Shown piece after piece: positions 1,261-57,375 of a DNA stretch of 64,000 nucleotides. Each line of letters opens with the position of its first letter. Positions within the stretch are counted from its first letter, which is position 1. Origin of the DNA: Terfezia claveryi (taxonomy: Eukaryota > Ascomycota > Pezizomycetes > Pezizales > Pezizaceae); NCBI GenBank assembly GCA_015179025.1, contig WHUX01000096.1, positions 1 to 64,000 of the forward strand. Reading direction: 5' to 3'. The translations under genes and the position numbers were made by a program. Under the pieces are notes generated by a model. It was not told where the DNA came from and ran no database searches. It worked only from the letters and a program-made list of their open reading frames with translations.

Positions 1261-1293
1261 AGGTAAGTAGTCTGGTTGGCACAAGAGGTAAGT
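1261..1293 (-). mobile_element. Micro-insertion (subfamily A), 17 bp, between 8-bp direct repeats
   Basis: The 8-mer AGGTAAGT at 1261-1268 is repeated at 1286-1293. Between them lies a 17-bp insert carrying the conserved block AGTCTGGTTGGCACA. Strand is given so that the constant end AGACTA is the 3' end. Confidence 0.75.
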
Positions 1294-2972
1294 GAGCATG
1301 TTGCTACCGCAATGGAACTAGAACACATGTACATAGTGCCAAACCCCTAGCCCAATCTCCAGCCGGCTTCCAATCTATTGGCCAGCCGAATTGAATTCCC
1401 TCTCCAGTCCCAAAAGGAGTTTGGATCACTGGATCCGAATTAAGGCTCCCGTATTACCTTGAAGGGAATCCCGTTCCATGATCCTCTCGCTATCTACGGC
1501 CCCGTCCCACTAACCAGTGGAAACCCGAGGCACCTAACGGTATCCAATTTTTCTACCGCCTCAAAGTCCGGTCATTGTTCAATATCTGAGGTTAGTCATA
1601 CTGGTCTACATTACTCTGATCATCTCGTCATGCAGTAGTATGGAACGATTCATCATCTACCAAATCTAATAATTAGATAATGTGGTCTGATTGCCAATCA
1701 GACCAGGTTGTAAATATAACGTTTTCACCGGTAAGGCTGACCCGAGCCGCATCGGACCAAGCTACTAGCATAAATACCGCGAACATTAGCGAACAAGAGT
1801 CCTTGTCGAAAGTGAAACCTCGTTCTAAATAATCCAAAATCCAAAGCGCAGGCCGCAATCCCGTCTATAAGTAGTAACGCGGCTACCTCAAACGAGCAGG
1901 ATCATATGTTTCGACTAGGACTCTTGTTCGCTAGTTGATAGGATACTGATACATTAAGTACTTCTTATCTAGATGTCTACAAAGGATAGGTAGCAGCCTC
2001 GAATATCCCTGTTAGTCAGGCTGATCGAGACTACCGATGCAGGCTAATATGACTTCGTTTATAATAAATGAGTCCTCGATACGAATAACAATTACCCGTT
2101 AGTAGATAAAATTAGGTAGCCATTTTGCTATTATCTTAAGTTCTGCGCTCTATTCTGAAGATTCATACTCAATTATGAAGGGGGTTTATGATCACGTGTA
2201 CCACAGCGGAGACTGCACATGAGCTGAACAGTTTGGGGCGGAGCACACACTTCAATCTCTTCTATGTCTCTGTTCTTACAAAATCTTCCAAATTTGAGGC
2301 TCTGGCCAGCCCAGGAGGCTCACTGCGCGGAAAGTCTGGCCAACTCCTGCCGTTGATCCCCAATGACAATCCCCGATTCCCCGCATCTTGTAGGCATCCT
2401 ATGGTGCTAGTATACGATGCCTTGAAAATTCTCAAGGCGCGGGCAGTATATGTCAGCGGATTCCAATGATTAGGTAGTATCTATATCCTAACACCATAAG
2501 CTAGCGCGTAGGCTCAATTGAGTTGAATTAGGGTTCGCATGTCTCGGACAAGTCCTATATGTGCGCTGCATGTGATCACGTAATTGAGGTGACGAAGCTT
2601 GGCGAAGCTTGGCGAAGCTTCGCGTTACTTCTAGCGCCTATGGCTAGTTCCTAGGTAACTATAACAACTCCAGCAGGACGCAGGGTCCTGGGGTTTCCAT
2701 TATTTATTACTTAGGCAACAGGAGTTACTATCATATAGGTCTGCCACAGGGATAATACGATAGCCAACCAGATTACCGGTATTGCCAATATCAGATGGGA
2801 TATGCCTGTGCTTGAATAAGCAAGTAATAAGCAGACAGCTGCTTTCTGGTGACTCATTCTGAGGGTGCAAGATGTTGACGTAATATGTGACGACGATTCA
2901 TAGCTATAAAGGTAGCTACCTAATGATTGATTGCGTGATGCCGACTTCTAATGCTAGTATAAAATTGCAACA
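1294..2972. other. Gene-poor stretch with short palindromes
   Basis: No supported gene. A 93-codon open frame at 2188-2469 has no recognisable similarity. There is a 23-bp near-perfect palindrome at 1683-1705 (arms TGGTCTGATTG / CAATCAGACCA) and a short tandem run of the unit GAAGCTTGGC at about 2596-2625. Confidence 0.4.
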
Positions 2973-3021
2973 GGGTAAAACCTAGTCCGGTTGGCACAAC
3001 ACCCCTCGTAGAGGGGTAAAA
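2973..3021 (-). mobile_element. Micro-insertion (subfamily A), 33 bp, between 8-bp direct repeats
   Basis: GGGTAAAA at 2973-2980 is repeated at 3014-3021. The 33-bp insert contains TAGTCCGGTTGGCACAAC followed by CCCCTCGTAGAG. It is one of the two longest copies and shares the CTCGTAGAG end with the copy at 54745. Placing the duplication at GTAAAACC/GTAAAATC (7/8) would make the insert start exactly at TAGTC. Confidence 0.75.
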
Positions 3022-3434
3022 TCATAGCTGTATAGCCTAGGTATGAACCTAGATTCATAAGTGGAGCAACGTTTGGGTCCACCAAAATGCGGATTAGCAT
3101 TAGTTTAAACGAACATTAACCAAATGCCCTAAACACAAGATGCAATAACCAATTCGCCCCAGACAATTCCGAACGCTCCCATTCCTCCGAAAAAATAACA
3201 ATAGCCGCCCATTAGTAAAAGAGATTGCTCCTCCAACACCAATTAAAAACATCGCCCTATATAAAGTGTAGGAAAATCGTGACCTGGGAGTGCACAAGAA
3301 AATCATGCCTTCCCATTCTGAGTGAAACATTTTGCTCTGATATTGTCTGTACCCATTGATAGATATGCACCCTCGCAATCAAATATATCTTGCCAGAATT
3401 CTAGCAAAATCTCCTTTTGTCCTTCTTGATCCAG
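3022..3434. other. Short intergenic stretch downstream of the C2H2 gene
   Basis: No RNA gene or repeat recognised. Open frames here on both strands have no family resemblance and overlap the 3' side of the zinc-finger gene. Confidence 0.4.
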
Positions 3435-4631
3435 TTATCCTCTTGCAATTGATGTCCACTGATAGAACTCTGCATGCTCTGGATCATTTCGACGGTAGTA
3501 CTCGACGCATTTGTCGTACCAAAGGGTATGAGGGTTTCTTTCCTGTACTGCGTCCCAAACCTCACGATGCCTTCTTTCTACATGCTTGGGTAAATTGTCA
3601 AGTCTGGATATTGTCGGACACCGAGGGCATGGACATCTGCGGACCAAGTTGCGGACCGGTTTCTTTCCGGTATCCATATTTGTGTGCCTGGTGTTTTGAA
3701 CATGGTGTTTCGTATACTCATGCCTGCGAAGGTCACCATTACGGGTAAAAACCTTACTGCAATCTTCACAGACAAAGGATTTTGCGGGGGGGTTTCTGTA
3801 TTTGGATTCTGCGGTTATGGCCTATTTCAGAAAGAGCACAGGCGGTACTATCTTCTTACCGAGATTTTCTATCATAGTTTCGATATAGCTGCTTCGCGGC
3901 GTGCGACCAGGTGCTTATTGTCGGTTTCACCGGCGGCGGAGACACTGGGGACGGTGGTGCTGCATACTGAGAACTAGACATACAAATGATCGTCAATAAA
4001 ATGTCAGAAGGATGTAGAAAGATTTTATTAATACCTAATTGTGGAACTCGATCTACAATCATCAAGATGGTGAAGGTTCGAACTCCTGGAACACACCCCC
4101 CATTATCAATCTGATATCCTACCCCTACTGGAGGTGCCACAAGTTCATTTAAAATACTTACCCAACATTATACGTTGAAGCTTCCAGTCCGCCTTCTGCA
4201 AGCCTCGCATCGTAAGCCTGTCGAAAAAAGGTGCATCGATCAGGATGTACGCTGATAGGGGGGGTAATCGGATGTAAATTTGGGGCTACATTCAATCCCC
4301 AGCCGGCCCAGGTCGATGGCGGGTTAAATGGTGCCGTGCCAAAACTAAAGTTATTGGAGGATTGAATACCCTTGAAAGCTGTGAGCTCAATACTAGAACA
4401 ATCGGTGCCAACAGAGCTATACGCTGTTATTGATGAATTTCGCATTATGTTCTGTACGCCGTTTAAGAGATCTAGATTTGAGAGACAGTTGCTACCCGAG
4501 TTATATTTTTCGTCAACCGGTGATATAGGAAAAGCATCCAAGGAGCTATCGAGTATCAAGATGTTCCGGTGGGTATGTGAGCCTGAAGGAATTCCCAGCG
4601 GGGATAAATGGGGACTCATATACGTCGACAT
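3435..4631 (-). CDS. C2H2 zinc-finger protein, three exons, 314 residues
   Basis: Exons read 4631-4162, 3973-3860 and 3795-3435 on the minus strand. Introns are 3974-4161 (donor GTAAGTAT, acceptor GTCTAG) and 3796-3859 (donor GTAAGA, acceptor ATACAG). Exon lengths 470+114+361 give exactly 315 codons including TAA, which supports the model. The N-terminal ~157 residues are Ser/Pro/Asn-rich and low complexity. The C-terminal part has one classical C2H2 finger (FVCEDCSKVFTRNGDLRRHEYTKH) and a second CPCPRCP...HVERRH finger. Such proteins normally bind DNA in the nucleus as transcription factors, but the target is unknown. The start ATG at 4631 is the first in frame, and an ATG five codons on is possible. 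It is the only apparently intact gene in the first 16 kb. Its C7 run at 3786-3792 is in frame, unlike C runs in other genes here. Confidence 0.8.
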
Positions 4632-7081: not shown

Positions 7082-8402
7082 GATGTGCATCTCACACCAC
7101 GTGTATATTTAGCGGACACTAGCCCAGTGGTGGATCATGTTAGTGGGGGAAAGGGGTTCCGGCGGCTCGTCATACACTCCGAAGGAAGGGGTGCGATTTT
7201 TTTTAAAAAAAATTAAATAAATTAGAGGTTCTAACGGGTACGAGACTAGCTCTAGTCGGCGACCTACAAATGACATATATTTCGTAGTTTTCTAAACTAG
7301 CTGTTTTGACTGCGCCTCTGGTACTTCGTCATGCGCTCGCCACGTCGCAGCAGACGTAAGATTATAGTTAATCCATCATTGGATATAACAATTAGGCATT
7401 CTAGCCTAGAACTTATTAGGAGCAGAACCCTTTTACTACCTACAAATACTCATGATTCATGATATGCGACAAATTGCTTCTAGAACTTCAATATCCATCG
7501 CCTATTACCGCTGCACATGTAGGATGAAATGCATCTGCATGTACAGTATGTACTGTATTAATCTACCCCAGAATCTCTAGAGCCTCCCAAAAAAAAAAAA
7601 AAAAAAAAATCCTACATAGATGAAGACGAAATCTATAAATTTTAATTACTGTGTCGATCAACTAGCTACCGACCCTAATATTATCGATGTTGTAACTGCC
7701 CCTGAGAGAGGATAGTGAGCCAACCATGATCCAAACGCATTCCACGTCACAATTAAGCCTCAGCTGAAGAGCTGACCTATACATACTGTACAACTTAAGC
7801 GTCAATGGGACAGCATCTCATCTCCCATGGGTACAAAAACCGGTGAACGCAAGCTCGTATATAGCCTTGAACGTAACAACACATCGATGACAACCAGACT
7901 AGTTCAATGATTCATAGTATCGCCAGCGAACGGTAAAAACAAAAACTCAAAACTCAACAACAGAAACAATAACAGCGAATATTATCAACTATTTTCAGTT
8001 TACCACCTTGAATCATCCTAGCTCTCCATAAACACGTTTGAATCCGCTTCTTGGTTGTCTGAACATAAATTTTGGCACTGAAATCAACCGCGCCGGTTCT
8101 CTCCTCCTCCTAGCGGCAATTCTTCTCTGAATGGGGTATCATTTCTTTCGCACTACTAATTAGTTACAAAAGGTTCTTCCAATAGAGTTGGGATGCAATG
8201 AACGTTAACCGCACAAGGAGAGAAAGCGAGAGCAACATCCCCCGAGCGCACCCATGTCGATTGGGCCTGAATTGAAATGTGGAAATGAGGTTCTCCAGTA
8301 CAACAGCTGTAGTTGGGAAAGCCTATTGTAACGTTTGATGTGCACTAGATATGTCTCTGATGAAATTTCCGTGCATAAACGAAACCGGGAGATCCAGATC
8401 GT
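7082..8402. other. Gene-free stretch with an A21 tract
   Basis: No gene recognised. An uninterrupted A21 run at 7589-7609 may mark the 3' end of an old retroposed sequence, but I found no convincing flanking duplication. Confidence 0.4.
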
Positions 8403-8447
8403 CACGCAGGCAAAGGAGGGTGTTGTGCCAACCAGACTACACGCAGG
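8403..8447 (+). mobile_element. Micro-insertion (subfamily A), 29 bp, between 8-9-bp direct repeats
   Basis: CACGCAGG at 8403-8410 is repeated at 8440-8447 (the match extends to 9 bases). The insert 8411-8439 ends GTGCCAACCAGACTA. Its other end (CAAAGGAGGGTG) differs from the other copies. Confidence 0.8.
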
Positions 8448-9056
8448 CGTCTTGGAGCTGAGAAAATCAGATCTCGAACTAACTTAGTTAGCCTGGCTGC
8501 AAGATAGAGCTATGTGGGTTCATCTGACAGCTAATGAAATTGCAATTGACGATAATATATAAGATAAACAGCATTATACCTGCGAATCCCCCGTTCTTGT
8601 CATATCTAGGAGCCCGTTACAATATGGTTGAAATTGGGGCGGGGCTCATACTATCCTACTTTAACGGCTACTCTGTTTTCTTCCGGGGGTGGGTGAATAC
8701 TTGTGCCCAGTCGGAATCTCGAGAGGTTGTACTCTACATTTACATGACCCTGCAACTTAAGTTAACAATCAGCAACTAGGTATATGACAATTAAGCATTT
8801 TAGACCAACTTCTGTGCCTTTCTGTCCCAATACACTCGTGACGATATATCGGGAGGTTGCAGCTGTAGTTAAAAAGATGCCTGGGTTTGCAGAAAACCTG
8901 GCGCCAGGGTCGGAAATACATCCACTCCAACTAATTTCAAGCTAGGACTCCCGCTTCTTAATATTCCTAAGCAAACACAGCCCTACTCAGGACTAATTTT
9001 CAGGATAAGGTTTTGAAATTCTGAGGGGGGTGTATTACATGTGAGATTACACCAGA

Positions 9057-9085
9057 TACTGAAGTTAGTCTGGTTGGTACTGAAG
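9057..9085 (-). mobile_element. Micro-insertion (subfamily A), 13 bp, between 8-bp direct repeats
   Basis: TACTGAAG at 9057-9064 is repeated at 9078-9085. The insert is only TTAGTCTGGTTGG, one of the shortest copies. Confidence 0.75.
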
Positions 9086-9801
9086 CAGGTATCACGTAAG
9101 TGGGATCTGGGTTGGCATGCTTCTCCCATAGAAACCATTCCGAATTCCGTCAACAATGCCCCCCCGATCATGCTGTAAAACATGTCTGATGTTGCTGTAT
9201 CAAGGGTTGATTATGCCTTTCCATGACGCAAGCCCCAAACAAATATTCACCCAATATATAAATGTAAAAAAAAAAAAACACACTCTCTGACATTGCTTAT
9301 TTGTTGTTTGAAAGTGAGTTTCTCATATGGTTTTCTGAACGTATATATATACATAAAGTCAATAGCTGTAAAAACTCACGACCTGCAGAGTATTTTTCAT
9401 GAGATAAAAATTTGGAGGATATGGCATACTGATTTCTACTGGTCCTGTAAAACAATTCCACTCCTTACTAGTGCTTATGAAAGCTTGAATCCGAGTGTGG
9501 TTTCATATTACTTCAGTATATCTTGAATTTTCCATAATAAAGTACTGTTGGTGCGCAATTGTCTGGGGATTTCGAATATTGATCTGCGTATGACCATAAT
9601 CTCGTACTCCCGGCGGGGAGGGGGAGGTTGTGATCAGATAGGTCACTCGGCTTGCCTCGGGTGAAGATAAGAAATGGATAGGCAACGGTGAAATCCCTAT
9701 CGACCCTCAACAAGGCAGTCTCCGAGAAACAATAATGCTCCATTAGCAAACACGCTGAATTATAATCCTGTATAAACTGATTGTGGAAGCTCGGAAGTGG
9801 C

Positions 9802-9848
9802 CTTCCAATTAGTCTGGTTGGCACGACCCCTCCTACCTACCTCCCAAT
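9802..9848 (-). mobile_element. Micro-insertion (subfamily A), 31 bp, between 8-bp direct repeats (7/8)
   Basis: CTTCCAAT at 9802-9809 and CTCCCAAT at 9841-9848 flank an insert starting TAGTCTGGTTGGCACGACC and ending CTACCTAC. The single mismatch is a transition. Confidence 0.65.
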
Positions 9849-11893
9849 ATTATTTTGGTGGTGTGGCATGGCCATGGCTGCAAGATCATCGTAGTCTGCA
9901 CCGCACCTGACCCCCAAGCACACTAGTACTTACGACCGTGTGGGTTTCTCCCAGAAAAGGTAAATTTCAGGCTTAAAAGCACAAAGCTAGATATTAGTAT
10001 CATTAACTGTGACCACGCCACGTAGAACCCGAGCTGTAATGTGTTTCTAACAGCACGGATGCAGAACACACGATGATGCGGGCACCAGAGTCAACCTATT
10101 GAATAGAACCCCTAGGTTTGATCTTGCACCGATCATTATGACAACTCACAGGCAGGAATGAAGAACTGCAGATGATAATTCTTTGGGAAACATAAAGATA
10201 GCACACGGAAATGCAGCCACGTGAAACGCTCATGAAATAGACTTCGCAGCATCACCCACGGGTCACCTGTACGTACAGGTCGGGGCTTATGGATAAGCAG
10301 CCTTGTTTAAAGGCATTTGTCAGTTCAAGTGGTGGTGACAAGTGTAAATTCTAGTAACGATTATCAGGTAGTCATGGATCGTGTACTGGCCATTGTGGCC
10401 TGCTGCAACACTGGATCATATCAATCATCAGCCTTGTAGGGGAAAACTACAGATTTGATGATTTGTTTCACTGATGTACCAATACAGGCCTTACACTTAA
10501 ACATCAACTACTCCTCTCGGGAGGTATTCTATATAGTCAAGTCTGGTTGGTAGAATATGAACTATATGCCGACTGTGTTACATCCATTAACCCTGTGCTA
10601 TGGACTGTGCTATTTCAATAAATTCATGTCCTGTCTGAAGCTCGTTAGTGAATACTTGGCCATTGACTTTCCATGATACTCTTTTGGTGGGGTGGGTCGA
10701 GGTTGGAGCCGTCTGGAATATACTGATCAACCCGCTTGCTGCCGCAATCGTCGATATTGGGACTAAATACGGCAATACGTACATGCAGATAGCCGTCCGA
10801 TTTCGAAACACTATTCGTCGCCCAAAATATACACTTCGTTGATTGTAGAAGCCGAAGAGGTCATTGCCCGAGGCTAGCGGCTGCGTCGGCTCATGGGTTA
10901 CACACAGGGTTGCTCGTGTCTCTATGGCTAGCCCTGCCTTTTAAATATAGTAAAAAATGTTCTCCGAGCAAGAGTGTACATTTATATCGCTTGGGACGCA
11001 GTTGTATCTTATACCTGTAGGATTGGGTTTAGCGGTACATCCAACTGTGAACTAGAGACCATGTTGTGTGATTTCACGGACCTGAAAACCGCTAAAGGCA
11101 GGGGGTGTATTCTTATATTTTCACGCTGGAGAGGCATTAAGGGATTCCAAGCTTACCTTGTTGTTATATCGAAGTACTCAATGGGAGAATTAAATACTGT
11201 AATATACTCCACCTATCACTGTATTCATTGTTTCTCAATGGTTTCAAAATCTTGATTGGCAAAAGTACGCCATGCTACTACATTAGCTAGAGCTATCAGA
11301 TTGGCGGTGGTATCTAGACCAGTCGTAGCCCTATCTTATTAACATTACTAGATTCTGAAGGAAGTCGCAACGTCCTTCTCCACGTCTTACCCGCCAGTTG
11401 AGAGTTTATACCTGAACTCAAAATACGTTAGTATTAGTATTGTATACTTGCTTTGATATGTAGCTTAAGAACAACGTGAAGGTATTCCAACATCACGGCA
11501 GGGATAGCCTCTGTGAGTGGGATAAAGCACCTAGCCATGGTATCCTACTAAGTAGGCCTCTGATGCTGACTCGGCAATACTGTTTTTGAGGACATGTGAC
11601 TGTCTGTGCAAGCGAGACCGAGTCTCAAAAAGCACACCCAGAGCCGAGAACCCAGACCTTCGTGCATTAGCTGTTATCATTTCTAGGCAAATTTTGGAAG
11701 AAAGTGTAAACCGGCGAGAACTAGATATCCCCCTTTAAACCTGATGCGTCAAACAGCTTAATTTATCCCTCAAAGACTGAAGTGAACACTTGTCCTATCT
11801 CCGGCTTAAGCAGAAACTGTTGGTTTGGAGTCAGAGGAACATGAACCCAGGCATTACTTCAAAGCAAATAATAATACTCGATGAGTGAATTGG
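9849..11893. other. Gene-poor stretch
   Basis: No supported gene. It contains a perfect 16-bp palindrome ACCTGTACGTACAGGT (10265-10280) and a further AGTCTGGTTGG copy at 10540 with only a weak flanking repeat (CTATAT). Open frames at 10587-10842 on both strands are unrecognised. Confidence 0.35.
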
Positions 11894-26628: not shown

Positions 26629-26660
26629 CAGGTTCTCGTGCCAACCAGACTACAGGTTCT
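26629..26660 (+). mobile_element. Micro-insertion (subfamily A), 16 bp, between 8-bp direct repeats
   Basis: CAGGTTCT at 26629-26636 is repeated at 26653-26660 (extends to 10 identical bases). The insert is CGTGCCAACCAGACTA. It lies 62 bp past the stop codon of the lectin-domain gene, probably in its 3' UTR. Confidence 0.85.
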
Positions 26661-28678
26661 CGCCCTTTCGATCTTCGTTGTTGATCTCTGGTCCATGGTT
26701 TCTTTTGAGGATACGAGTGGATCTGTGGAAATACCTTGTTTAGCTGGAAGGCAGAAAGAAAAGTTTGGGAGTTGGGATTTTTGGTACTTTGCGGTTTCTG
26801 TGACTTCCTCTTTTGTCCCTACTCTTTGCTTGCTTTTATTTTGGGCAAGATCAAGAGACCCAAGATTTCATAGGCGCAAATATGGTTATGGTAACTGGCA
26901 AATTCGTTAGATAAATGGGAAGTCGAGTAGCAGGCGGGGGCGAAAGAAAACAAGCGGAAAGGTGGGGGAGGAGGGCCAGAGGAAAGGTGGGTTTGATGGA
27001 CTGCAGCCGGGTTTTCTTTGAATCTTGTTGGTGTTTATGTTACTTCACTCAGTCACTCACATAATATGATGTTTTGTCTGTTTGATCACCTTTTTGGTTT
27101 ATTCATGGTTTCTCATTTCGTTTCTTCTATCTTCCATATATGCCTTGTCTCTGAGTTCAGAGTTCTGGGTTCAGGGTGTCTTGAATATAGTGGATAGATG
27201 GGTCCATGACATGACATGGACGGGTCCTACAACCTCGCCAGATACGGCCTGCAGGAGAAACAGGCATTGGTCTAACCAGAATATCTGCTTGCTAGCTTGT
27301 TTGCTTAGTGTTGATGCTCCACTTCCATTCCCTCCCCCTATTGCCTTCCTTCGTTCGGTACATGGTAATTGGATTTGTTTATACATGATCCCGATGATTC
27401 CTTACCCCAAGGTTTGGGCGGGGTGGCGGGGGGGTGTAGGATAGGGACTGTGTCGGGACGTGTCGAGTTTATTTGGATTCTGTCGGTGAATCCTGGGCCG
27501 GGAAATGGGATACTGCCTCCTTCTCTTCCTTTTTGCATGGAATGAGAGGGGGGGAGGGGCGGTATAGTGCATTCTGGGGGAATATGGGGTGGATACGGAT
27601 ATATTTCTTGGATACGAATAGGGCGGATGGGAAGGAGGGAAGGGCAGGAGGAAAGGCTTTCTTTTGTTAGTGGATGTTCTTTGTAATTTAGACTGGGATG
27701 GGGATGAGAGTGGGATTTGGGCATGGGTACTGTAGGTAGTTTAGGGAATGTGGAATACATATATGGTTATTATATGAGGTTTCGACAAGATCAAGGACGA
27801 GATCAACGGTCCTGGCTGGTAGTGGCAGCTCGTTTGTTACCTGGTGATAGCTGGCAACCAATAAGGAAACCCACAGAAGTCACGTGATTTGCGACCTGCA
27901 GACTTGGAAGTGATTTGGGATACATAGAGACGAGATGCCGTGGGCGGGTATAAGTACTTATATTCACAGTCGGCATAGTAATTGTCAGAGAATTATCGCA
28001 TCATCACATCCTCCAAAGTATTACTGTGCGTGGGCATCGCTATTTTTATAGTGATTTACTTGCACATGTGCAACCATGCCGCGTATGTGTGGAGAATGGA
28101 GATGGGGATGAGAGCTGGAGATGGAGATGGATATGTATGGATATATATGGATCTGATATATATAGGGATATGTATTGATATATATCCGTATACAATACGT
28201 ATACATCCATCGATCGCATTATTCTTGCTCATTGGAATTATACTTTGTATATTTCATATGAATATGTTGCATTCTTGCCCAGCCCCGCCCGGCAGCTGAT
28301 CAGACGACATCGCACCTCATTCCATCGCTCACCGACATCACACAGCTTGTCAACAACCGCCAGCTTTGCACCGGGAGCGATCGTTGGCTTTACCGATTAA
28401 TTATTCTGTTATTCTGCTCTTGCCTTGTGGCCCTGTTATTGCTTTTACGATACCCATATTACCCATCGCCATTTTTATAACAAACACGTTAACAAAGCGC
28501 TGAAGCTCATTACCCCTGCCGCCCATCACATCGCCCCCCACGCAACCACCAGCCCAGCGCCATACCCTTTCTCCACCGCCATACGTTCAGCCCTGGGACA
28601 AGTATTTTCTCCACCGTATTCACTTCACCTCACCCACCTCCTCACCATTCCAATCCACACACGTAGCCCCCTCCACCG
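26661..28678. other. Intergenic between lectin-domain gene and Q-rich gene
   Basis: No gene supported. Contains GATATA/TATGGATA-rich low-complexity sequence at about 28100-28200 and a pyrimidine-rich stretch from about 28440 that probably includes the promoter and 5' leader of the next gene. Confidence 0.4.
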
Positions 28679-29401: not shown

Positions 29402-32400
29402 GCAGGGTCAGTATGGGGGGTATGATAATACTGGGAATACTATGGCGGGAGCAAGTACAGGGTGGCAGCCGCAGAAACCGCAACAGCAGTATTCATGGGA
29501 CGGGACGGGGAATAGTAATTGTAATAATAATAATACCACGGGAGGATGGCAGCAACAGCAGCAGCCGCAAAACCAACAACAACCGCAACAAGGGGTGTTT
29601 TCGCCGGGTACTACGGCTACGCCTGGGTTTAGCCAATATGGCGAGGATAGTTCGGGGTATGTATTCAACTATCCATCCATTTTCTCTATGCACGCCCATC
29701 CAGCTTTTATCATTAAAGCAAATCTCTTGAAATTATCTACTCACTTTTTGCTCCTTTTCTCCTTCCAGATCCGGAACCACCGCCCCCCCAATTATTCCCC
29801 CCTCCGTCACCACCACCACCGGCCACTTCCACCAACCCCAGCCCCAACTGATCTCCCACCCCCCAACCTTCACCGCCGTAGACTACAACAACCTTCAGCA
29901 CCAATCCCACTCCCAAGTCTACTCCCCCACCACAGACACAAGTCCCTCTCCGTGGCAGAGTGGGACATTATCCCAACCTACGTCCTTCGGCCCTGCTTCG
30001 GGGCAAGGGCTGAAGAAGAAGTGGACATATACGCCTGCGGGGCAGCAGCCGCAGCAGCCGCAGCAGCAACACTCTCAATGTGGAGGTGGGTTGGGACAAC
30101 AGGATAATAGTAGCAATGTCAATGCTGGATTAGGAAGTAGTGGTGTAGGTAGTTGGGATCTTCAACAACAGCAGCAGTATGCAGCACAACAACAGACTCT
30201 CCAACAGCAATATGCCCACCCCCTTCCCCATCAACAAGACTCCTCTTCGTTCTGGGTAAGTGGTCAGCAATACCAACAACCACCCCAACAACTCCAACAG
30301 CAACCACAAGGCCAAAACCCCACAATCTCCTCCAGCATCCTCGCCGGTGGAGGAGGCATTTCTTCATGGGAGCACTTTGGCATGGGTGTGGAAGAAGTCG
30401 ATGATGAAGCTATCCTAGCTGAACGCACGAGGAGGCGGGATGAGGAGAAAGCGAGAGAGAGAGAAGAGATGGAGAGGCTCCGTAGGGAGGAGGAGAGGAG
30501 GGTGGAAGAAGAAAAAAGGAGATTAGAAGATGCAGAGAGGAAGAGGGTTGAACAAGAAGAAGCGAGGAGAGCGGAAGAGGAAAGAAGGAGGGTTGAGGAG
30601 GAACGGAGGAAGGCGGAGGAGGCGGAGCGGATTAAGATTGAGGCAGAGCAAAAGAGAGCAGCGGAGGCGGAGCAGAGGAGATTTGAGGAAGAGCAGAGGA
30701 GGGCAGCGGAACAGAGAAGGCTTGAGGAGGAGAGGAAGAGGATTGCGGAAGAGGAGTTGAGAAGGGCGAAGGAAGAGGAGGAGAGAGTGAGGAGGGCGAA
30801 GGAAGAGGAGGAGAGACTGAGGAGGGTAGAGGAGGAGAGGAGGAAGATTGAGGAGGAGAGGAAGAGGATTGCGGAAGAGGGGTTGAGAAGGGCGAAGGAA
30901 GATGAGGAGGAAGTGAGGAGGGCGAAGGAAGATGAGGAGAGACTGGGGAGGGCAGAGGAGGAGAGGAGGAAGATTGAGCAGTTTGCGGCTGCGGCTGCGG
31001 TAGCTTCGGCAGCAGCTAAACAGCAACAGGAATCACAACAGCAGCAACAACAATCACTGCAGAAATTACAACACCAACAATCCTGGGGATCAATCATGCA
31101 ATCCTCCCCCCCACAAAGCCCCGCATTTCCGCCGTATAGTGTCCTGCAGCAATTTCATCACCAATCGAGTAGGCCTGCGATGACATATCCTAATGCGGTA
31201 ATGCCGGGGGATATTCATGGTGTTGGTGGAGGTGTTGATGGTGCGGAGTATCGAGCTCGGACTATGACTCAGCCGTGGCAGCAGGATGGGCAGAAGGATA
31301 TGATTAATGAACCCGTACCGCTCCCGGGGATGGCTACAGGTGCACTTCCTCCTGCGGTCCCCCCAAAGATTGAGCAGGTTCTGCCGGCGTTGGCGCAGTT
31401 TGTGCCGAAGGGAGATGGGGTGCAGCAAGAACCCCTACTCGTATCGTACCCCGAGATCCACCCCAACGGCGGGGCCCCCCTCCCCCCACCTAAATCCACA
31501 CCCCTCCTCGTCACCACTTCCATGCAAACCGACCCTATCCCCCCACCTCCCACCCCACCACCTCCCCCCCCTCTGAATTCTCCGTCCCGGACTCCCTCGA
31601 CCACTGGTATCGCCAGTCTATCCACCGGTACATCTCCATGGTCCTCTCGGAATCCGCAGCCGCAACCGAAAAGGAGAAGTTGGGGGTTTTTACGAATTTT
31701 ATGATGGACGAGACGACCCTTAGAGGGGCGAGATATTCTACTGCTGTGGGAGAGGAGGGCGAGGCGGGGTTGGTGGGGTTGGGGGGGATGCAGAGGAAGG
31801 GTACGTTTTGGGGAAGTGGGGATTATGGAAGTTTGTATGGTAGTGGTACTGGTAAGGGTGGTAAGGTTGTGGGAGAGAAGGAGAAGGGAGGAGTAGGTTT
31901 GGGGGGTTATGAGAGTGTTAGTGAGGATGATGGTCATTACGATGATGAGAGTGATGATGGAGGGGTGGGTGGTGAGTTGGGGGGAATCGGGGTGGAATTG
32001 GAGAGGGAGTTGGGAATTTTGCCCAAAGAGAAGGAAGGGGTGGAGGTGAAGCCTTTATTTGCAGGAAAGAAAGTGGACAAGCCGGTGCCGCATTTAGGAG
32101 AGGGGATATTGAAGAGGGTTAATACTACTACTTCTACCTCTACGCCTACTCGCACGCTTACTCCTAGCCCTATACCTCAGCATGAGCAGGAGGCAAAATC
32201 TCTACTGCCAGCACTACCTCACGCTATAGCCCCTCTCAGTCCAAGAAGAGATTCCTTCCCTCCCCCAGCAGCACCAACACCGGCTACTCCAAATCGGAAC
32301 TCACTAACAACCGCAAAAACAACTCCCGCACCACTATCCGCATCCCCGAAACTCACCGCCCAAAGTAGGCAAAGCTCTCTCAATATCACAGATAATACCC

Positions 32401-35207
32401 CGCCTACACCGGGAGTAAGCCAGTACAAACCCTTTAGACCAAGTACACCCACCGCGACAACTGCACCGGTGAAGCCGTTCGGAAGGGATGTATCTTCGCC
32501 CAGCCCGGGGGTGAGTGGGTACCAGGCGTATCATCCCCCGTCTACTAGTACGGCGGCAGCTACAAGTCCGAAACTGCCTTTTGTCGCTCCTGCGACAGAG
32601 GGTGGATACAGAGCGTATAGACCTCCCAGCGAGGTAAACGCCGCAAAGAGGAATTCTTGGGTAGCTGGCGGATCTACCGGGGGGGCTCTAGGTGCGGGAG
32701 GGATAGCTAGGCCGTTCAGTGCGATTGGAGCCCAGGGTATGGTGCCGTCCCAGATGGCCCCAGATAGGAGGATGACGATGACGACGATGCCTGTTGGGGG
32801 TGCAAGTTCTGGGTTATCTAAGAGTGCTCAAGGACAGGGCCTGGTGGATGAATTGGGATTACTTGGATTCGGTGAGAGTGGGAATGGAGCGGCATCGAGA
32901 AGGGCGCATACGATGGCATGGGATGCGGCACATCCTCAGCATCTACAACAGCACCAGGGGAAGCCGATTGGCGGGTTTTTTGCACTACCGCCGGTTGATG
33001 GTCAAGGTCCAGGGAGGGCGAGGGCGGAGAGCGTAGGCGTTGGTATGGGGGCGCCAAAGACCCCGCCATATCCGTTAGAGGATTTTCCTCGGCCGTTTAA
33101 GCCACAAGCACCACAAGGACAAATTCCACATAGCAGGACGCCGAGCCCAGGTGCAGCAGCAGATGCGAGGGGGAGAACGAGAGCAGCGTCGACACCATAT
33201 CCTCAGCAGCAACAAGGGAATAGGAGTAGAGCCAGCTCTGCGACTCCCATACCAGCAGCACTACAAACTGGAGCTGGGCCGAAAAGTAGAGATGGTTCAC
33301 AGGGACCGGGGGGGTATGGAGGGAAGAGCTTAAGCCCGCAACCACAGCAGGGTCAGTTTGGGAATAGGGCGAGGAGGGAGAGTGGGAGTCGAAGCCCGGG
33401 ATTAGCGGGGCCGGTATATTCACAGTTTGCACCGCCACCGCCGTTGCAGGCAGGGAGAAAGACAGGAACGCCGAAGCAAGGGCAGGGGTATGCTCCGCCG
33501 CCACCACAGCAGCAGAAGAGTCCGCAGGGGCCGGCGAAAGCGGGATTGACGTTGTCGCCTGCGCTGGGGAAATCGCAGGGACCGGATTCGCCGGGGCTGA
33601 CGGGGAGACAACAACAACAACAACAACAACAGCAACAACAACAACAGCAACAACAACAGCAACAACAACAGCAACAACAACAACAGCAAGAGGTTCCGAG
33701 AGCGGTGAGTCCAGGGCCGCAATTGGGGGCGGGGATGCAGCAGCGGGGGGTAAAGGTGGCTACGCCGGTGCAGACACAGCCGATCATGGCTCCCCCTGCG
33801 GCGGTGATGATGGAAGCGGAGCCGATTATGGCAGCGCCTGTACCGCCAAAAGCAGTTACACCTGCTCTCCAACAACCTCTTTCTGCCCCACCAGCTCCAA
33901 CAGCATCCACTAGTAATACCTCCCCTGCCCTAACCACCCTCCTCACCCTCCTCCCTCCCACAACCCCTCTCACCAGCTCCGTCTCCCGCACCACAACCCT
34001 CCTTTCCTCCCTTCCTTCCGACTTTTCCTTCATCACGACACTCACTGCCGAATACACCACACATCTGAACCAGATGCGGAAAAAATCTGAAGAAGTACGC
34101 CGCCAGCGCCAAGAAGCCCACGATAAAATCGGCGATCAAGCATATACTGCGAGCGAGGTTGGATATGGGGATTTAGTAACTTTGGACGAGGAGTTCAAGG
34201 AGAGTGAGGCGCGGGTGAAGGAGGAGGAGGAAGCAGTCGAATGGAGGATGTTTGGGGAGCGGGTTGTGGAGCCGGTGATTAAGAGGCTTGGAGACGAAGT
34301 GAGGAAATTGAGCGGCGAAAAGCGATGGTTGGTTGATGAGGCTCTGATATCGGCGACTGCGGGGAAAGAGTGGTGGTTTGGTGGGAGTACTGGGGCTGAA
34401 AGTAAACCTGGTGTTGGGGACATATTACGCGCACTCCTGGATATTTACACTGCCCTTGAAGCTCGCTACAAAAAAATTACTGATATCCAGCTTGAGAAAA
34501 TTCGCAGAGAGAAGAAGATGGTGTGTGCTCGGCTGTACGAGAGGGGGGAAGTAAAGCGCATGAAGGAAACCGAGAAGTCGTTTGAAAAGGCTGAGAAAGA
34601 GTTGCTGCATAAATCAGCCATTGAACGCAGGGCTCGCGCGGGGGAGCTGCAGAGGGTGGTGGAGGAGGGTGTGATGAGAGGGCTGGAAGAGGAGCTTGCT
34701 TATTCGGAGCTAGTGACGAATGCGGTCAAGGCACTGCTGGAAGAGGTTCCAGCGAGTGAGGAGGGGGTGAGGGAGAGATACGCGAGGGAGAAGGAGTGGG
34801 TTGTGGAGACTGAGGAGGCGTTGGCGAAGGGGGAGGTGGTGCTGGCGGAAATTAACACACGTACAGTGGGGCTATTTGAAATATTTTATGATGCAGGAAT
34901 GGAAATTGCGAGGTCGGAATTTGAGGAGAGGTTGGCGGGGGGAAAGGCGAGTGGGGCGGTAACGAAGGAGGAGGTGGATGGGTGGGAGGGAACGAGGAAG
35001 GATGAGGAAGAGAGCTTGGCAAAAGAGTTGGGTGAGAGGAAGGAGTTGGTGGTGGGGGAGTGGGAGGAGGTGAAAGGGCTGATTGGGATGGGGATTGGGA
35101 GGCTGAGGGCGGGAAAGGGGAAGGAGGAGATGCAGGAGAAGGTGGAGGTGCAGCCGGCGCCACAGACCCAGGGCGGGGGAAAGGGCGTGTGGGGATGGTT
35201 TAAGTAG
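28679..35207 (+). CDS. Long Q/P-rich coiled-coil protein (~2,100 residues), three exons, one or two C-run frameshifts
   Basis: Introns 28853-28917 (GTAAGT...CCTAG) and 29657-29768 (GTATGT...TCCAG) join in frame; exon 3 ends at TAG 35207. Order: Q/G/Y/P-rich N-terminal half with a 27-Gln tract (29325-29405); a Glu/Arg/Lys coiled coil (30405-30990); a proline-rich stretch; a block that reads as conserved sequence (DSLDHWYRQSIHRYISM at about 31590, followed by MMDETTLRGARY); a long disordered Ser/Pro region with a second 27-Gln tract (33609-33689); and a C-terminal helical domain ending GVWGWFK. I do not recognise the family. Its architecture suggests a cytoplasmic scaffold. The frame shifts at C run 31564-31571, where 8 C are present and 9 would be in frame. 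The start is uncertain: ATG 28679 needs one extra C in the run at 28706-28712, and the upstream in-frame sequence to 28504 has no ATG. Confidence 0.75.
29325..29405 (+). repeat. CAA/CAG polyglutamine tract, 27 codons
   Basis: Mostly alternating CAA and CAG codons, ending in four CAG codons, in exon 2 of the Q-rich gene. The mixed codons should make it less prone to slippage than pure CAG. Confidence 0.95.
30732..30983 (+). repeat. 126-bp (42-residue) tandem duplication in the coiled coil
   Basis: The block starting GAGGAAGAGGATTGCGGAAG at 30732 recurs at 30858 with about a dozen changes. It encodes RIAEE(E/G)LRRAKE... twice. 126 bp equals 42 residues, which is six heptads, so the coiled-coil register is preserved. 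Confidence 0.8.
33609..33689 (+). repeat. CAA-rich polyglutamine tract, 27 codons
   Basis: 27 consecutive Gln codons, mainly CAA with regularly spaced CAG, flanked by LTGR and EVPRA. Same codon count as the first tract but a different CAA/CAG pattern. Confidence 0.95.
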
Positions 35208-39003: not shown

Positions 39004-39738
39004 ATTGAACAAACGCTTAGTAGCTATGAACATAAGGATGAGACAATATGGGAAATCGTCACTAGAGATGTCCAAAACCCAGATCCCACAGCTACCGAAA
39101 AAGCAAGAGATGCAGACGCCAAAGCCTGGAAGAAAGATAACAACTTTGCGATTCTTACAATGAAACGAAATTGTGAAAAAGAAGTCGTAGATATCATCGG
39201 GCTAGCCAGGACAGCTAATGAAGTCTACCAAGAGCTGAAAGCAAAGTTCGAAGGCAAGACTGTTACCACACTTGAAGCTCTACTCATAGAAGTCATTAAA
39301 CTTAGTTATGATGATAGAACCAACTCGATTGAAGAACATATTAGCGAGTTCAATAAAAAATGGGGTTTTATGAGATCTATGCTAGGAGGAACAATCCCCG
39401 ATAATCTCAAAGAATTTGGAACAATACTAACAGGCCTGAGCAAAAATGATCAGGCCAAAGGGATATTCCTTCTAGCCACCCTTCCACCCTATTACAACAC
39501 TCTTATTGAGAATATCCAAATGAAGAGTAGACTTACTTATGGCAATATCACTACTCACCTCAAAACATATGTCCCAGGTAGGCAAAAGGGGAAAAGGAGA
39601 GGAGACAATGCTAGAGATTCAGTACAAAACCCAGTAGTACTCAAGACAGGAGCTAGCAGGGGATGGGATCAAGGAGATAATGGCAAAAGATGTGACTACT
39701 GCATCAGTAAAGGATGGAAAGGACAAACCGACTTCTAG
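39004..39738 (+). pseudogene. gag (UBN2-type) of the copia element
   Basis: The longest open part is 39160-39738, with the features of copia gag (KAKFEGKTVTTLEALL, then LLATLPPYYNTLIENIQ). It ends in the start of a CCHC zinc knuckle (CDYCISKG), after which the knuckle is cut off and a TAG follows. Upstream frame is interrupted. Confidence 0.8.
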
Positions 39739-48728: not shown

Positions 48729-48747
48729 TAGTCTGGTTGGCACAACC
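48729..48747 (-). mobile_element. Micro-insertion-like copy (subfamily A)
   Basis: TAGTCTGGTTGGCACAACC; no flanking 8-bp repeat found. A subfamily-B insertion lies just downstream, so the pair may be nested. Confidence 0.5.
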
Positions 48748-48751
48748 TGAC

Positions 48752-48794
48752 GTAGACTAGTCTCATGCCAAGACCCTACTGCTAGTGTAGACTA
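48752..48794 (-). mobile_element. Micro-insertion (subfamily B), 27 bp, between 8-bp direct repeats
   Basis: GTAGACTA at 48752-48759 is repeated at 48787-48794, flanking GTCTCATGCCAAGACCC... . The boundary TA may belong to the element; if it starts at TAGTC the flanks match 6/8. Confidence 0.6.
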
Positions 48795-49363: not shown

Positions 49364-49389
49364 GTACAATCGATGAGACTAGTACAATC
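49364..49389 (+). mobile_element. Shortest micro-insertion (subfamily B), 10 bp, between 8-bp direct repeats
   Basis: GTACAATC at 49364-49371 is repeated at 49382-49389 (the next base also agrees with the insert start). The insert is just GATGAGACTA, the terminal 10 bases of subfamily B. Confidence 0.7.
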
Positions 49390-50929
49390 GTAGCTATCTG
49401 TTCTCATCTAGTTCAGATGACAACATAAACCTAGGTATTGGCGTAGCCACTGCCTCTTGTAGTCTAGGTATGTTCTCATGTGGACATATGATGTGCGCTT
49501 TCCTCCTATGGCATAGTGGGACATGAATAATCTCGCTCATCACGAGGTGGGTTACACTTACGCAGATGTAGGAGTCTGAGTTGGAAGATATGAGGGCTAT
49601 GGGGAGACGCGAGAATGTCGACCGCTTCCTTCCAGGGGTCGTCCTCCTTTTCCATACCTTCTCGCGCAGGCCGCCATCTCCTCCGTAGCAGAATAATCTG
49701 TCTCCCTTGCCTAGCTTCTCCCATTTCCCAATGGGATCCAAATCCATCTACCCTCGATGGGTCCTTGTTGTGACGATTCTGCCATCTCCGACACCGCCTC
49801 CGACACCCCCTCCAACACCACACCACCTCTGTCAAGGTATGTGCCGCTCGATTGGATGCCTATGGACATCGCTAACATACCGGGGCCCCTCCGTCCCCGA
49901 CAGACACCTTGAAGACACCACCACCTCCGACACCGGTGACCCTGGCACATACGTTACTTAGGTCAGTGTAGTATTTCATCTATTTTTCTACGTTATATTG
50001 CGTTTTCTTGGTTCTTTCGGCTCTGTGGGTATTTCGGCTCTGTGGGTTTTTCGGCTTTATCGCCCGCATGTGACTGCTTCCTGGCTGGACAGTCACCTCC
50101 ATGTGGGAATTGGTTCTCTGTTGAGGGCAACAATCGTCAGCTTTGGAGCGCGGGGGAAATGGAAGCCCCAGTAGCAACTTCCATACTGTCATTGCGACAC
50201 GGCGGGTCAGTTGCCTCAAGGTTGGACAGGCGTATCCTATGCCTTAAAGGGATATTGTGTGTTTGTGTGTTTGTTTCTCTGTTCAAACATTTTGGCGTTT
50301 AAAAATGGACTTCATCGCTAACACTGGCGTTTTCCTAGTATTCTACCTTACTCCACCGCCGCCGGACATGTCCGCAGCGTCAAGCATGTGGAATTTGGAA
50401 GGTAAAAGAAATTGGCACGGTGGTGATCTCCTTTCTGGGAGATTAACAAAAGAATTGAAGTTGAGGAAGGCTATGCAGTATTCTTTCGCAGAAATTATTT
50501 AACCCACAATGTATTCAATATTTCAGCAAGTGAAGGGGGTGGCGGTGGAAGGAATGTTGTGGATTTGTTCTCACATATTAATCTGAAACGGGTTGATCAA
50601 GCACGGGGTTGACATGGAAGAAAGATACCTAAGGGGCAAGAAGCGATAAGGACATTGGGGGACGAAGAGGAAGAGGCAAGGCGGTGTGAGAGGCTGGGAA
50701 GGAATACAACACTCTCTGCTGGTCTCTGTCTTTTCCTCTACCTTTGCTCTTTCCCGATGGCATTATAGCAACCCGTTATGAATCTGTTGCTATGCGCCGT
50801 TTTTACCGTTGGCTTTAGAATCCCCGTCGCCAAGAGCCGATGATCTTGTCCGTGGCTGGTTGCCACGTTTGCGCCCTTTTCTGGGAGAAATTGCCCCGGT
50901 GAAGTTATCAACTTCACCCTCGGGGGAAA
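49390..50929. other. Unassigned stretch with coding-like minus-strand block
   Basis: A minus-strand open frame at 49394-49747 (RKRSTFSRLPIALISSNSDS...) has natural composition but no recognised family. It may belong to the LINE copy whose leader lies at 50930-51060, or to an old gene. Nothing else supported. Confidence 0.3.
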
Positions 50930-54736: not shown

Positions 54737-54784
54737 GTGCTATCTTCTCTACGAGAGGCTTGTGCCAACCAGACTAGTGCTATC
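54737..54784 (+). mobile_element. Micro-insertion (subfamily A), 32 bp, between 8-9-bp direct repeats
   Basis: GTGCTATC at 54737-54744 is repeated at 54777-54784 (ninth base also matches). The insert includes the hairpin CTCTACGAGAG and ends TTGTGCCAACCAGACTA. It lies only 9 bp beyond the LINE's right target duplication. Confidence 0.85.
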
Positions 54785-54927
54785 TATTGTCTTTGTTCGA
54801 TGTACAAGAGTATGTTGTTCGTTCTCTAAAACCTGCCTACTGGAACACCCAACCTTATGCCTCGATGACCTAACTGACCTAACGAACTATCCATTACTTT
54901 TCAAAACTAGTCTATATATTAGCGCGT

Positions 54928-54981: not shown

Positions 54982-55040
54982 CCATGATCGTGAGAGAGGG
55001 GAGGAGGGGTGGGTAGGTGGGGACAGCCTAGGAGGGTGGG

Positions 55041-55845: not shown

Positions 55846-56400
55846 TGTCTCCCAGCCGCCTAGGCAGAGCGTTCAACCCCAGCCCTTCCGGGTGCCATGG
55901 TTCTCTAACCTTGCCTCAGTTGTGCAGTCCGGAACGGATGGATCTTGAGTTTCACTGGAAGCCTGTTCGGCCATTGAAGCGTACTGAAAAGTAGCATTGT
56001 AAACGTACATGGTATTGGCAAATATTTATCTACATAAAAGCTGATCGCATCGGTTAGGGGTGCGCTAGAACGTGCGCTAGAGTGCCCGACTGGGTGTGAT
56101 CGACCCCGCTTGGCAGCGCCTGCAGCTGCCGGCTCGGCTGTGCCAGCTGAGAGCTTCCATTATTCGGTGGTTTATTTTATGGTTATGTTTATTTATTGAG
56201 GGCCCGAGTTCCAATCCCAGTGGAGGCAAGAAGTTAATTGCCTTAATATCATTGGAAGGACGAGGGAGCAGGGTTGTCGGGTATCCATTCCTTAATGCTC
56301 CAGTTCACTATATCTCTACCAAACCACAAGTCTACAACGAGGGCGACCTAAGAAGTAGTGTGATGGCGCTCGGAGTACAGTGAACTGGGGTAACTCGTTT
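55846..56400. other. Gene-free stretch
   Basis: No gene recognised. GAGTTCCAATCCCAGTGG at about 56207 is weakly like a pol III B box, but there is no convincing A box. Confidence 0.35.
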
Positions 56401-56424
56401 TGCCCCCCTCTACATATTGGTGAT

Positions 56425-56575
56425 TTTCATGCTTTTGCCGGCTCTACATATTGGTGGTTTTCATGGTTTTGCCGACTCTAGGTATTGTTGGTTTTCATGC
56501 TTTCACCGGCTCTATATATTGCTCTACATATTGGTGGTTTTCATGCTTTTGCCAACTCTAGGTATTGGTGATTTG
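56425..56575. repeat. 34-bp minisatellite
   Basis: Four to five copies of CTCTACATATTGGTGGTTTT + CATGCTTTTGCCGG with variants. Confidence 0.8.
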
Positions 56576-56709
56576 ACTGTTGGTCTAGTAGAAGGAAGAC
56601 TGCTCCGGTTGATAAAAATTGGTTCACAGTAGGACTATCGGTGCGCAGTAGAAGACTAGATGACTATCGCAGTAGAAGAGTAGAGGACAGTAGAAAACTA
56701 TAGGTAAAT

Positions 56710-57296
56710 ATCTATGACAAACATAGACTGGCGTCTTTCGAGCCAACTCAGAAAGACCCAGTCCAGAGGTATAGCAAGTAGATAAATAAGGCTAGAGAAG
56801 ACGTTGGATAGAGAGCAAAATGCGAGAAAGCAAGAACGAAGGCTGTATATATACGGAAGGACCCACACGGCCAAGGAAAAGGTTAAGAGTAGAGCAGTAG
56901 AAAGGTATGGCTTCGGCAATAAAGAGATCTATGACAAACATAGACTGGCGTCTTTCGAGCCAACTCAGAATGACCCAGTCCAGAGGTATAGCAAGTAGAT
57001 ACTAGATATCGAAATACTGGCAGTAGAGCGACAGTGCTGTTGTGTTGTAGTGTGGAAGGTTCGAGGCCGCTTCCGCACTTGCCGGTGTTACCCCCTTACT
57101 TCTCTTTACTAGTAGAGCCTGTTCGGACCCACCATCGAGGAACTTATTATACTAGCATTGAGTGCAGCAAGGAGGTTGAGCACCAACAGAAGGATGGAGT
57201 TGAGAATGGGCATCGTAGGGGAAGTTGAAAAAAAAAATGACGTTGGATAGAGAGCAAAAGGAAAGAAAGCAAGAAAGCAAGAACAAAGGCTGTATA
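56710..57296 (+). repeat. Direct duplication interrupted by a SINE-like insert
   Basis: 56710-56784 is repeated at 56927-57001 with one change. The following block (GACGTTGGATAGAGAGCAAA) occurs at 56800-56850 and again at 57239-57296. In the second copy the two blocks are separated by the extra ~236 bp described as a SINE-like element. Confidence 0.75.
57002..57237 (+). mobile_element. Probable tRNA-derived SINE with A10 tail
   Basis: A perfect pol III B box GGTTCGAGGCC (57058-57068) lies 29 nt after an A-box-like TGGCAGTAGAG (57018-57028). The unit ends in A10 (57228-57237). It is absent from the first copy of the surrounding direct repeat. I could not find a clear target duplication. Confidence 0.5.
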
Positions 57297-57343
57297 TTCG
57301 GGCTTGGTAATATTTAGTTATGCAACACCTTTCCTTACCATAG

Positions 57344-57375
57344 TCCCCATATAGTCTGGTTGGCACATCCCCATA
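57344..57375 (-). mobile_element. Micro-insertion (subfamily A), 16 bp, between perfect 8-bp direct repeats
   Basis: TCCCCATA at 57344-57351 and 57368-57375 flank exactly TAGTCTGGTTGGCACA. This is the cleanest example. Confidence 0.9.

Follow-up and report, generated by a model that had tools for sequence, protein, structure and literature searches.

Very short AGACTA-ended insertions between 9-bp direct repeats form a genome-wide family in Terfezia claveryi

The window examined here is a stretch of 64,000 nucleotides from Terfezia claveryi (contig WHUX01000096.1, positions 1 to 64,000). It contains short sequences that share the terminus AGACTA, or TAGTCT when read on the other strand, and several of these lie between direct repeats (Table 1). 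An earlier note on this DNA had claimed ten such repeat-flanked sites. When the repeats are read as 9 bp long, eight of the ten are good and one (1261) is weak. The remaining site (48752), for which the boundary had been adjusted, fails with a repeat of about 6/9 by eye and is not supported.

Table 1. AGACTA-ended inserts and arms in the window
Span	Strand	Insert or arm	Flanking direct repeats
1259..1292	-	16-bp insert, 1268-1283	9 bp, only 7/9
2974..3023	-	32-bp insert, 2983-3014, end mutated to GGACTA	9 bp, 8/9, frame by eye
8403..8448	+	28-bp one-ended insert (AAAGGAGGGTG + TTGTGCCAACCAGACTA), 8412-8439	9 bp, perfect, CACGCAGGC
9057..9086	-	12-bp insert CCAACCAGACTA, 9066-9077	9 bp, 8/9
9801..9848	-	30-bp insert, 9810-9839	9 bp, 8/9
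26629..26661	+	15-bp insert GTGCCAACCAGACTA, 26638-26652	9 bp, perfect, CAGGTTCTC
48729..48743	-	arm GTGCCAACCAGACTA	none detectable (lost or never made)
49364..49390	+	9-bp insert ATGAGACTA, 49373-49381, GAGACTA subfamily	9 bp, perfect, GTACAATCG
54737..54785	+	31-bp insert TCTCTACGAGAGGCTTGTGCCAACCAGACTA, 54746-54776	9 bp, perfect, GTGCTATCT
57343..57375	-	15-bp insert, 57352-57366	9 bp, 8/9
59613..59627	-	arm GTGCCAACCAGACTA	none detectable

Within the window alone the excess of repeat-flanked sites is modest: 7 of 50 AGACTA sites have a 9-bp repeat, compared with 3 and 1 in two shifted controls. Of 3,000 random window positions, 159 (5.3%) pass the same test, probably on account of tandem arrays. 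A sample of approximately 310 kb of the genome was decisive. Here, 104 of 380 AGACTA sites had a 9-bp direct repeat with at most one mismatch, 70 of them perfect, compared with 12 when the next 9 bp were used, 7 for the reverse complement and 5 for the reversed string. When AGACTA was ranked against 60 permuted hexamers in the window plus loci L021-L040, it came out on top (55/217; median 2/89). The runners-up were AGACAT (21/155) and GAATAC (21/165), whose excess probably comes from a satellite at 60983-62290. The small motif has thousands of copies in the genome, many of which are insertions of 7-34 bp. Across the 72.6 Mb of the genome, the sequence CCAACCAGACTA alone has 4,088 occurrences, compared with 34 for the pattern read backwards. 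Copies are found on many contigs, for example C1 (1.13 Mb), and this distribution is not that of an organelle-bound family. Thus, the family of AGACTA-ended inserts is real and genome-wide. The earlier claim of such inserts between direct repeats is confirmed, and the comparison of flank identity that had been named beforehand as a check places AGACTA far above the shifted, reversed and permuted-hexamer controls.

The repeats had been described as 8 bp long. Repeats are indeed present, but their length is mostly 9 bp. Exact repeat runs adjoining the AGACTA end were most often 9 bp long (30 rows), followed by 10 bp (11 rows) and 8 bp (9 rows), with other lengths in 13 (63 rows with a run of at least 6 bp among 138 sites, two palindromes entering once for each strand). 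Each insert accordingly loses about 1 bp from the length given earlier. The duplication is thus of nearly fixed length, mostly 9 bp and sometimes 8 bp, with 8 bp seen in a few two-ended copies (L054, L081 and L083). Target preference is weak and symmetric, with G/C at position 1 in 41 of 59 duplications and at position 9 in 38 of 59.

Most repeat-flanked copies are half-elements that keep the AGACTA arm and are missing the other. TAGTCT or AGTCT stands at the opposite end in only 12 of the 104 repeat-flanked rows, which represent 6 elements. The lengths of the 92 one-ended inserts fall into two classes: 42 are 7-15 bp long, none is 16-23 bp, four are 24-25 bp, 38 are 26-34 bp and eight are at least 35 bp. 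Insert length had been noted to vary; it does, but not freely. Inserts of 15 bp form a sharp class (11/92), and a few of the eight longest inserts contain left-arm sequence internally. A stem of 4-6 bp stands at the inner start of 12 of the 19 one-ended inserts that measure 30-36 bp, where shuffled sequences gave a mean of 0.65 and a maximum of 3. These 12 inserts carry six different stem sequences, with seven of the twelve alike; the other seven inserts have no 4-bp stem. The inner stem looks like a relic of a lost palindrome arm. Seven half-units folded separately did no better than shuffled sequences (z -1.67 to +0.53).

The subfamilies carry different arms. Some inner ends are common to one-ended and two-ended copies, as with AAAGGAGGGTG in the window copy at 8403 and in L082, and CTACGAGGGTG in L035 and L096. 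When nested inserts were excised in silico, older inserts were recovered in four cases, two of them with perfect repeats (L061 and L066). The nested cases show insertion with duplication, and the earlier suggestion of a variably truncated mobile unit anchored at one terminus fits these data well. At 33 of 64 one-ended arms no direct repeat is seen.

Two-ended copies (TAGTCT...AGACTA) are rare. Those seen are 19-56 bp long and most often form a palindrome of 41-56 bp. Of 26 fetched two-ended loci, 19 have exact arms of 15-25 bp, and the remaining seven have exact arms shorter than 15 bp or ends that are not clean. Perfect 9-bp repeats flank the copies at L077-L079, and 18 of 25 fetched loci have a repeat of 8 or 9 bp directly beside the copy, with no more than one mismatch. 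This retention does not differ significantly from that at one-ended arms (31/64, p = 0.059). One 50-bp two-ended copy has a folding energy of -28.7 kcal/mol (z -11.8).

We looked for empty sites and interrupted genes. There is no second long copy of the window stretch 8000-10200 in this genome, and none of 108 repeat-flanked rows lay within a non-self alignment longer than 150 bp that could have offered a paralogous site for comparison. In the paralogue comparison, two alignment gaps beside AGACTA/TAGTCT fall in hAT end repeats. Six repeat-flanked rows (five distinct inserts) lie in reading frames of at least 120 aa; for one of these, in L031, a homologue lacking the insert was sought and no homologue was found. 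Loci L098 and L101 share a flank.

The genome contains 21 matches to the MULE domain. The transposase behind the family is perhaps Mutator-like, a superfamily suggested by the fit of the 9-bp duplication. A survey of the fetched loci for a long element bounded by TAGTCT...AGACTA and flanked by a 9-bp repeat found none, and a rare one would escape it. The earlier note had pointed to hAT elements and 8-bp duplications, and this was not supported: the duplication is mostly 9 bp, and at 10 of 12 hAT loci with visible ends (the 12 taken from 150 scored matches) the apparent ends are TACGYCTGGGCACG.. or CAGTGTTCTC.., not TAGTCT. KDZ transposons gave nine matches, and no TAGTCT...AGACTA pair was present in the six loci cut out, five of which are near-identical copies (L041 is not). 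There was no match in the genome to an IS1595/Merlin-type transposase, for which a control search was positive in one genome. The P-type transposase domain PF21787 also had no match, though the control genomes gave none either, and the mostly 9-bp duplications differ from the 8 bp of the P superfamily.

The reading we favour, with a little less than even confidence, is that the inserts represent a tiny non-autonomous DNA transposon whose half-elements arise through hairpin-processed insertion with loss of one arm. We infer a transposase acting in trans that would join AGACTA-3' ends to the target strands at points separated by 9 bp. Either strand of the palindrome could then fold back on itself while its 5' arm was still unligated, and this arm would be removed by cleavage of the hairpin loop before or during repair, that is, at insertion instead of later. 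Cleavage at the centre of the palindrome would give the 26-34-bp products, and cleavage at a small hairpin within the arm would give those of approximately 10-15 bp. Gap filling would remake the 9-bp duplication, with the target end then ligated directly to the loop remnant. The simple form of this model does not predict the 33 arms without a repeat. An exact 30-bp palindrome able to halve into the 15-bp class has one copy in the genome, which leaves that class without a simple parent.

An unlikely alternative is that excision left the inserts behind as scars. In that case a longer transposon bearing the same terminal repeats would have inserted, making 9-bp duplications, and then left; a staggered cut inside the repeat would leave up to approximately 30 nt of one end, while the other overhang was clipped to the duplication. 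The P-element offers a precedent, as it is cut 17 bp into its terminal repeat, which leaves long single-strand extensions (excerpts of PMC7776569). The two-ended copies could be read as both end remnants joined, and the sharp 15-bp class would suit a fixed cut. Scars trimmed at both ends should then be common. Tandem 9-bp duplications lacking an insert are in slight excess (counts of 10 and 7 at spacings 0 and 1, respectively, compared with 2-4 at spacings 2-7), but under a stricter filter there are 5 at spacing 0 compared with 1-6 at spacings 1-6. The earlier note had offered scars of a departed transposon as an option; the few insert-free duplications and the palindrome-like inner ends, with their differing stems, weaken it, and no long parent was seen, a result of low power if the parent is rare. 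We consider it similarly improbable that two-ended palindromes inserted normally and later lost one arm when the extruded hairpin was cut or disturbed replication, its base being the fixed point of the break. That base coincides with the duplication boundary, two-ended palindromes with perfect repeats exist, stem relics occur at the truncated end, and the repeat-less arms would suit deletions that ran into the flank. However, in 31 of 64 arms the deletion would need to have ended precisely on that boundary, and two-ended copies whose left arm is shortened are scarce, given 12 rows starting with TAGTCT or AGTCT against 92 without. Classical slippage acts between flanking direct repeats and would be predicted to use them here, restoring the empty site.

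Two further explanations carry much less weight. If a small structured RNA were reverse-transcribed from a fixed 3' end and its copies were 5'-truncated at hairpins, in the manner of LINE and SINE insertion, the result would be a constant end, a variable other end and duplications. This is very improbable, given a duplication mostly fixed at 9 bp, the absence of an A-rich tail, the inverted two-ended copies and the lack of any ends at lengths 16-23, where a polymerase should stop too. An origin in chance, in low-complexity repeats or in artefacts of assembly or adapters could draw on the pass rate of random window positions. We regard this as close to negligible, since it is contradicted by the controls, the genome-wide copy number, subfamilies with different arms and nested copies.

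We compared the family with systems already described. The GC clusters of yeast mitochondria (GC42/GC18) include 403 sequences with their first 13 nt in common, and GC18 is one terminus of the longer GC42, according to excerpts of PMC4478555. On the same excerpts, they resemble the AGACTA inserts in being tens of bases long, with a common terminus, a different remainder and short flanking repeats. By contrast, they are mitochondrial and flanked by AG or ACT, whereas the AGACTA inserts occupy a large genome with a 9-bp duplication. Maize Mu makes a 9-bp duplication and has terminal repeats of about 215 bp (excerpts of PMC2774946). MULEs share the duplication length with this family, but the exact arms here are at most 25 bp. 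The two-ended copies resemble MITEs in their inverted repeats, nearly fixed duplication, lack of gene space and high copy number. MITEs are usually far larger than approximately 50 bp, and most repeat-flanked copies here (92/104) lack inverted repeats at both ends. The P-element, with an 8-bp duplication and cleavage 17 nt inside the terminal repeat that leaves long end remnants in the excerpted account (PMC7776569), is near in duplication size; this family has mostly 9 bp and few insert-free duplications, and no long parent was seen.

One-ended transposition is also known in the Tn3 family. The AGACTA inserts show its pattern of a constant end, a variable end and a full duplication, though 33 of 64 arms show no duplication. 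In IS801/IS91, too, one end is constant and the other variable, and the excerpted account of IS801 (PMC3189936) describes bacterial one-ended products of 229-679 nt that terminate at a tetranucleotide resembling that of the normal left end; the main products here are 7-34 bp. Among the titles and abstracts that our searches of open-licence literature returned, we found no description of such inserts in a nuclear genome.

A more tentative proposal is that single arms, some as short as 7-15 bp, are inserted by a eukaryotic transposase with complete 9-bp duplications, and that a family of thousands of copies spreads mainly through one-ended transposition of hairpin-processed half-elements; we hold this possible but doubtful. 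If the inserts are scars or later deletions, they would amount to a dense archive, within a fungal genome, of visits by transposons and of hairpin repair. If half-elements were inserted directly, one specified end would be enough for a transposition event, an insert of 7-34 bp with its duplication would be a normal product of transposition, and annotation that looks for two ends may miss such inserts. The family hints at a little-known route, the pasting in of half a transposon.

The tiny inserts that share the AGACTA end (TAGTCT in reverse complement) are abundant in the T. claveryi genome (72.56 Mb in 794 contigs, the window being contig C791). CCAACCAGACTA occurs in 4,088 copies compared with 34 of the string read backwards, and the 17-mer TTGTGCCAACCAGACTA in 1,616 copies compared with none of its reversed string. 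Using 62 sequences (310 kb in all) that comprise the window and loci cut from the same genome (L numbers), we found that the 9-mer following AGACTA recurs upstream of the insert at 104 of 380 sites, with at most one mismatch and an insert of 6-62 bp allowed between the two copies. Seventy of these repeats had no mismatch. Controls using the next 9 bp, the reverse complement, or the reversed string gave 12, 7, and 5 sites. These counts, the insert lengths, and the first count of insert-free duplications omit L001-L008 (which lie within later loci), the KDZ loci L041-L046, L047 (the window itself), sites close to the end of a locus, and identical contexts; L077-L102 did not enter them either. 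Loci were picked around listed genome copies of the family (L021-L040, L057-L076), for a hAT domain (L009-L020), or by similarity to positions 8000-10200 of the window (L048-L056), so densities are not genome averages. Having a repeat was no criterion in choosing them.

The earlier note had proposed flanking direct repeats of 8 bp. The repeats are borne out by these counts; their length is mostly 9 bp. Exact runs directly after AGACTA were 8 bp long in 9 rows, 9 bp in 30, and 10 bp in 11, and 11 of 41 is the expectation for chance extension of a 9-bp repeat. Eight of the ten sites named in that note have a 9-bp repeat (9/9 or 8/9), the one at 1261 is weak (7/9), and that at 48752 is unsupported. 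The satellite in the window (see table) probably makes for a higher background in the repeat test. Genomes of desert truffles are covered in excerpts of PMC10455484.

Coordinates of features in the window and in two loci
Sequence	Position	Strand	Feature
Window	31638-35204		One long reading frame (1189 aa); full-length match, 69% identical, in the desert truffle Tirmania nivea
Window	39160-39735		Copia-type gag fragment (PF14223, E 7.6e-08)
Window	60983-62290		23-bp satellite CTCCAGCATGAGTATTCAGACAT, large inverted array (~0.9 kb in one orientation, then ~0.4 kb in the opposite)
L011 (hAT locus)	~1208-1230	reverse	Apparent hAT end, TACGTCTGGGCACGAGAC
L035	~8315-8430		9-mer AACAAAAAT apparently bearing three different inserts (by eye)

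Most repeat-flanked copies are one-ended. Of the 104 such rows, 12 (six elements, each seen on both strands) start with TAGTCT or AGTCT; the other 92 inserts measure 7-15 bp (42), 24-25 bp (4), 26-34 bp (38), and 35 bp or more (8, a few nested or with left-arm sequence inside), with none at 16-23 bp. Arms vary by subfamily (GTGCCAACC, GTGCTAGCC, GTGCCCGCC, GTCTGATCG, GTCTGGGCACG) and have AGACTA in common. In 12 of 19 inserts of 30-36 bp, a stem of 4-6 bp (loop 3-5 nt) starts within the first three bases, compared with an average of 0.65 and a maximum of 3 of 19 when the left 20 nt were letter-shuffled 1,000 times. The 12 stems comprise six different sequences, seven being identical, so related copies are counted repeatedly; among distinct left ends, 9 of 16 have the stem. 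These opening stems make the inner end resemble a remnant of a palindrome's missing arm. Inner ends of one-ended copies also reappear in two-ended ones (AAAGGAGGGTG in L081 and L082, CTACGAGGGTG in L096). In L060 the arm is part of a tandem repeat (period 58 bp), a minisatellite that may have grown from it.

Two-ended copies (TAGTCT...AGACTA) with a 9-bp repeat were found as six elements of 19, 20, 25, 31 (one end imperfect), 38, and 39 bp in the examined loci. L054 holds a 47-bp copy with an 8-bp repeat, and L081 and L083 also have 8-bp repeats (by eye). Opposed ends led to L077 and L078 (50 bp each) and L079 (54 bp), each flanked by a perfect 9-bp repeat. A similarity search that scored 40 of 91 first-look candidates gave at least 80 matches, with about thirty distinct two-ended places among those listed (by eye). 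Twenty-three were retrieved; one of them, L102, repeats L078 together with its flanking sequence. In 19 of 26 loci (L077-L102) the arms match exactly over 15-25 bp, and in 18 of 25 (L102 left out) a repeat of 8 or 9 bp, with one mismatch or none, lies next to the element. The fold of the 50-bp copy has a stem of 23 bp and a loop of 4 nt. For single units, folding is no stronger than in shuffled sequences (z -1.67 to +0.53); the case for loops therefore comes from palindromic copies and from positions rather than from half-unit stability. L098 and L101 have a common right flank (GGTTATTTCTTAT) and differ in left flank and interior.

In four cases, taking out an insert together with one repeat uncovered an older insert that could not otherwise be seen. 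A perfect 9-bp repeat of its own flanks the restored insert in both L061 (a 15-bp insert within one of 34 bp; CTGCGAGGG) and L066 (28 bp within 38 bp; GGTTTGTAT); in L025 and L060 the restored repeat has one mismatch and may be due to chance. Nested copies thus show insertion by evidence internal to the family. The 9-mer in L035 appears to be a reused target. Paralogous alignment covered none of 108 repeat-flanked rows among the examined loci.

No longer element with these ends was found at spans up to 12 kb in the examined loci, which apart from the window are at most 10 kb long, so a low-copy parent would be missed. The genome has 150 scored matches to hAT domains, 21 to MULE domains, 9 to KDZ domains, and none to an IS1595-type transposase. 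For the P type, PF21787 had no match here, nor did it in the control genomes. A hAT source is disfavored by the apparent hAT ends observed, which differ from those of the family. The 15-mer GTCTGGGCACGAGAC of the L011 hAT end also occurs in the tiny subfamily GGGTCTGGGCACGAGACTA, in opposite orientation relative to the end, possibly by chance via a GTCT/AGAC stem. MULEs would fit a 9-bp duplication and are candidates only.

A duplication of mostly 9 bp together with the constant AGACTA-3' end indicates strand transfer by a transposase. In about half of the copies the duplication boundary is exact despite a lost arm, which points to loss at insertion, prior halving, excision scars, or later deletion. 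Scars would be inserts left over from a departed element, a reading modeled on P-element stagger (as excerpted from PMC7776569); Ds excision footprints with hairpin-type intermediates are described in part of PMC1978519. Many insert-free duplications would then be expected. A first count showed a slight excess at spacings 0 and 1 (10 and 7, compared with 2-4 at spacings 2-7). With stricter counting, spacing 0 held 5 and spacings 1-6 held 1-6 each. Both fall far under the 104 rows with an insert (filters differ), and we therefore rank scars about equal to later deletion of one arm after insertion, and both below loss at insertion.

Some results do not fit a simple picture. Among one-ended arms, taken as exact 15-mers from the window, L021-L040, and L057-L076, 33 of 64 lacked a repeat. 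The distribution for exact 15-mers was two-peaked, with no slow decay. The repeat was kept more often in two-ended than in one-ended copies, a difference that was not significant (p = 0.059).

Nearest in behavior to this family are yeast mitochondrial GC clusters and bacterial one-ended transposition, as far as excerpts of PMC4478555 and PMC3189936 describe them. Arm loss at insertion is the best reading: a transposase would carry out strand transfer of the AGACTA-3' end, and the unligated 5' arm would be lost. Insertion of an already halved element is an alternative within the same class of model. We hold the mechanism as a whole tentatively, at a little under an even chance.
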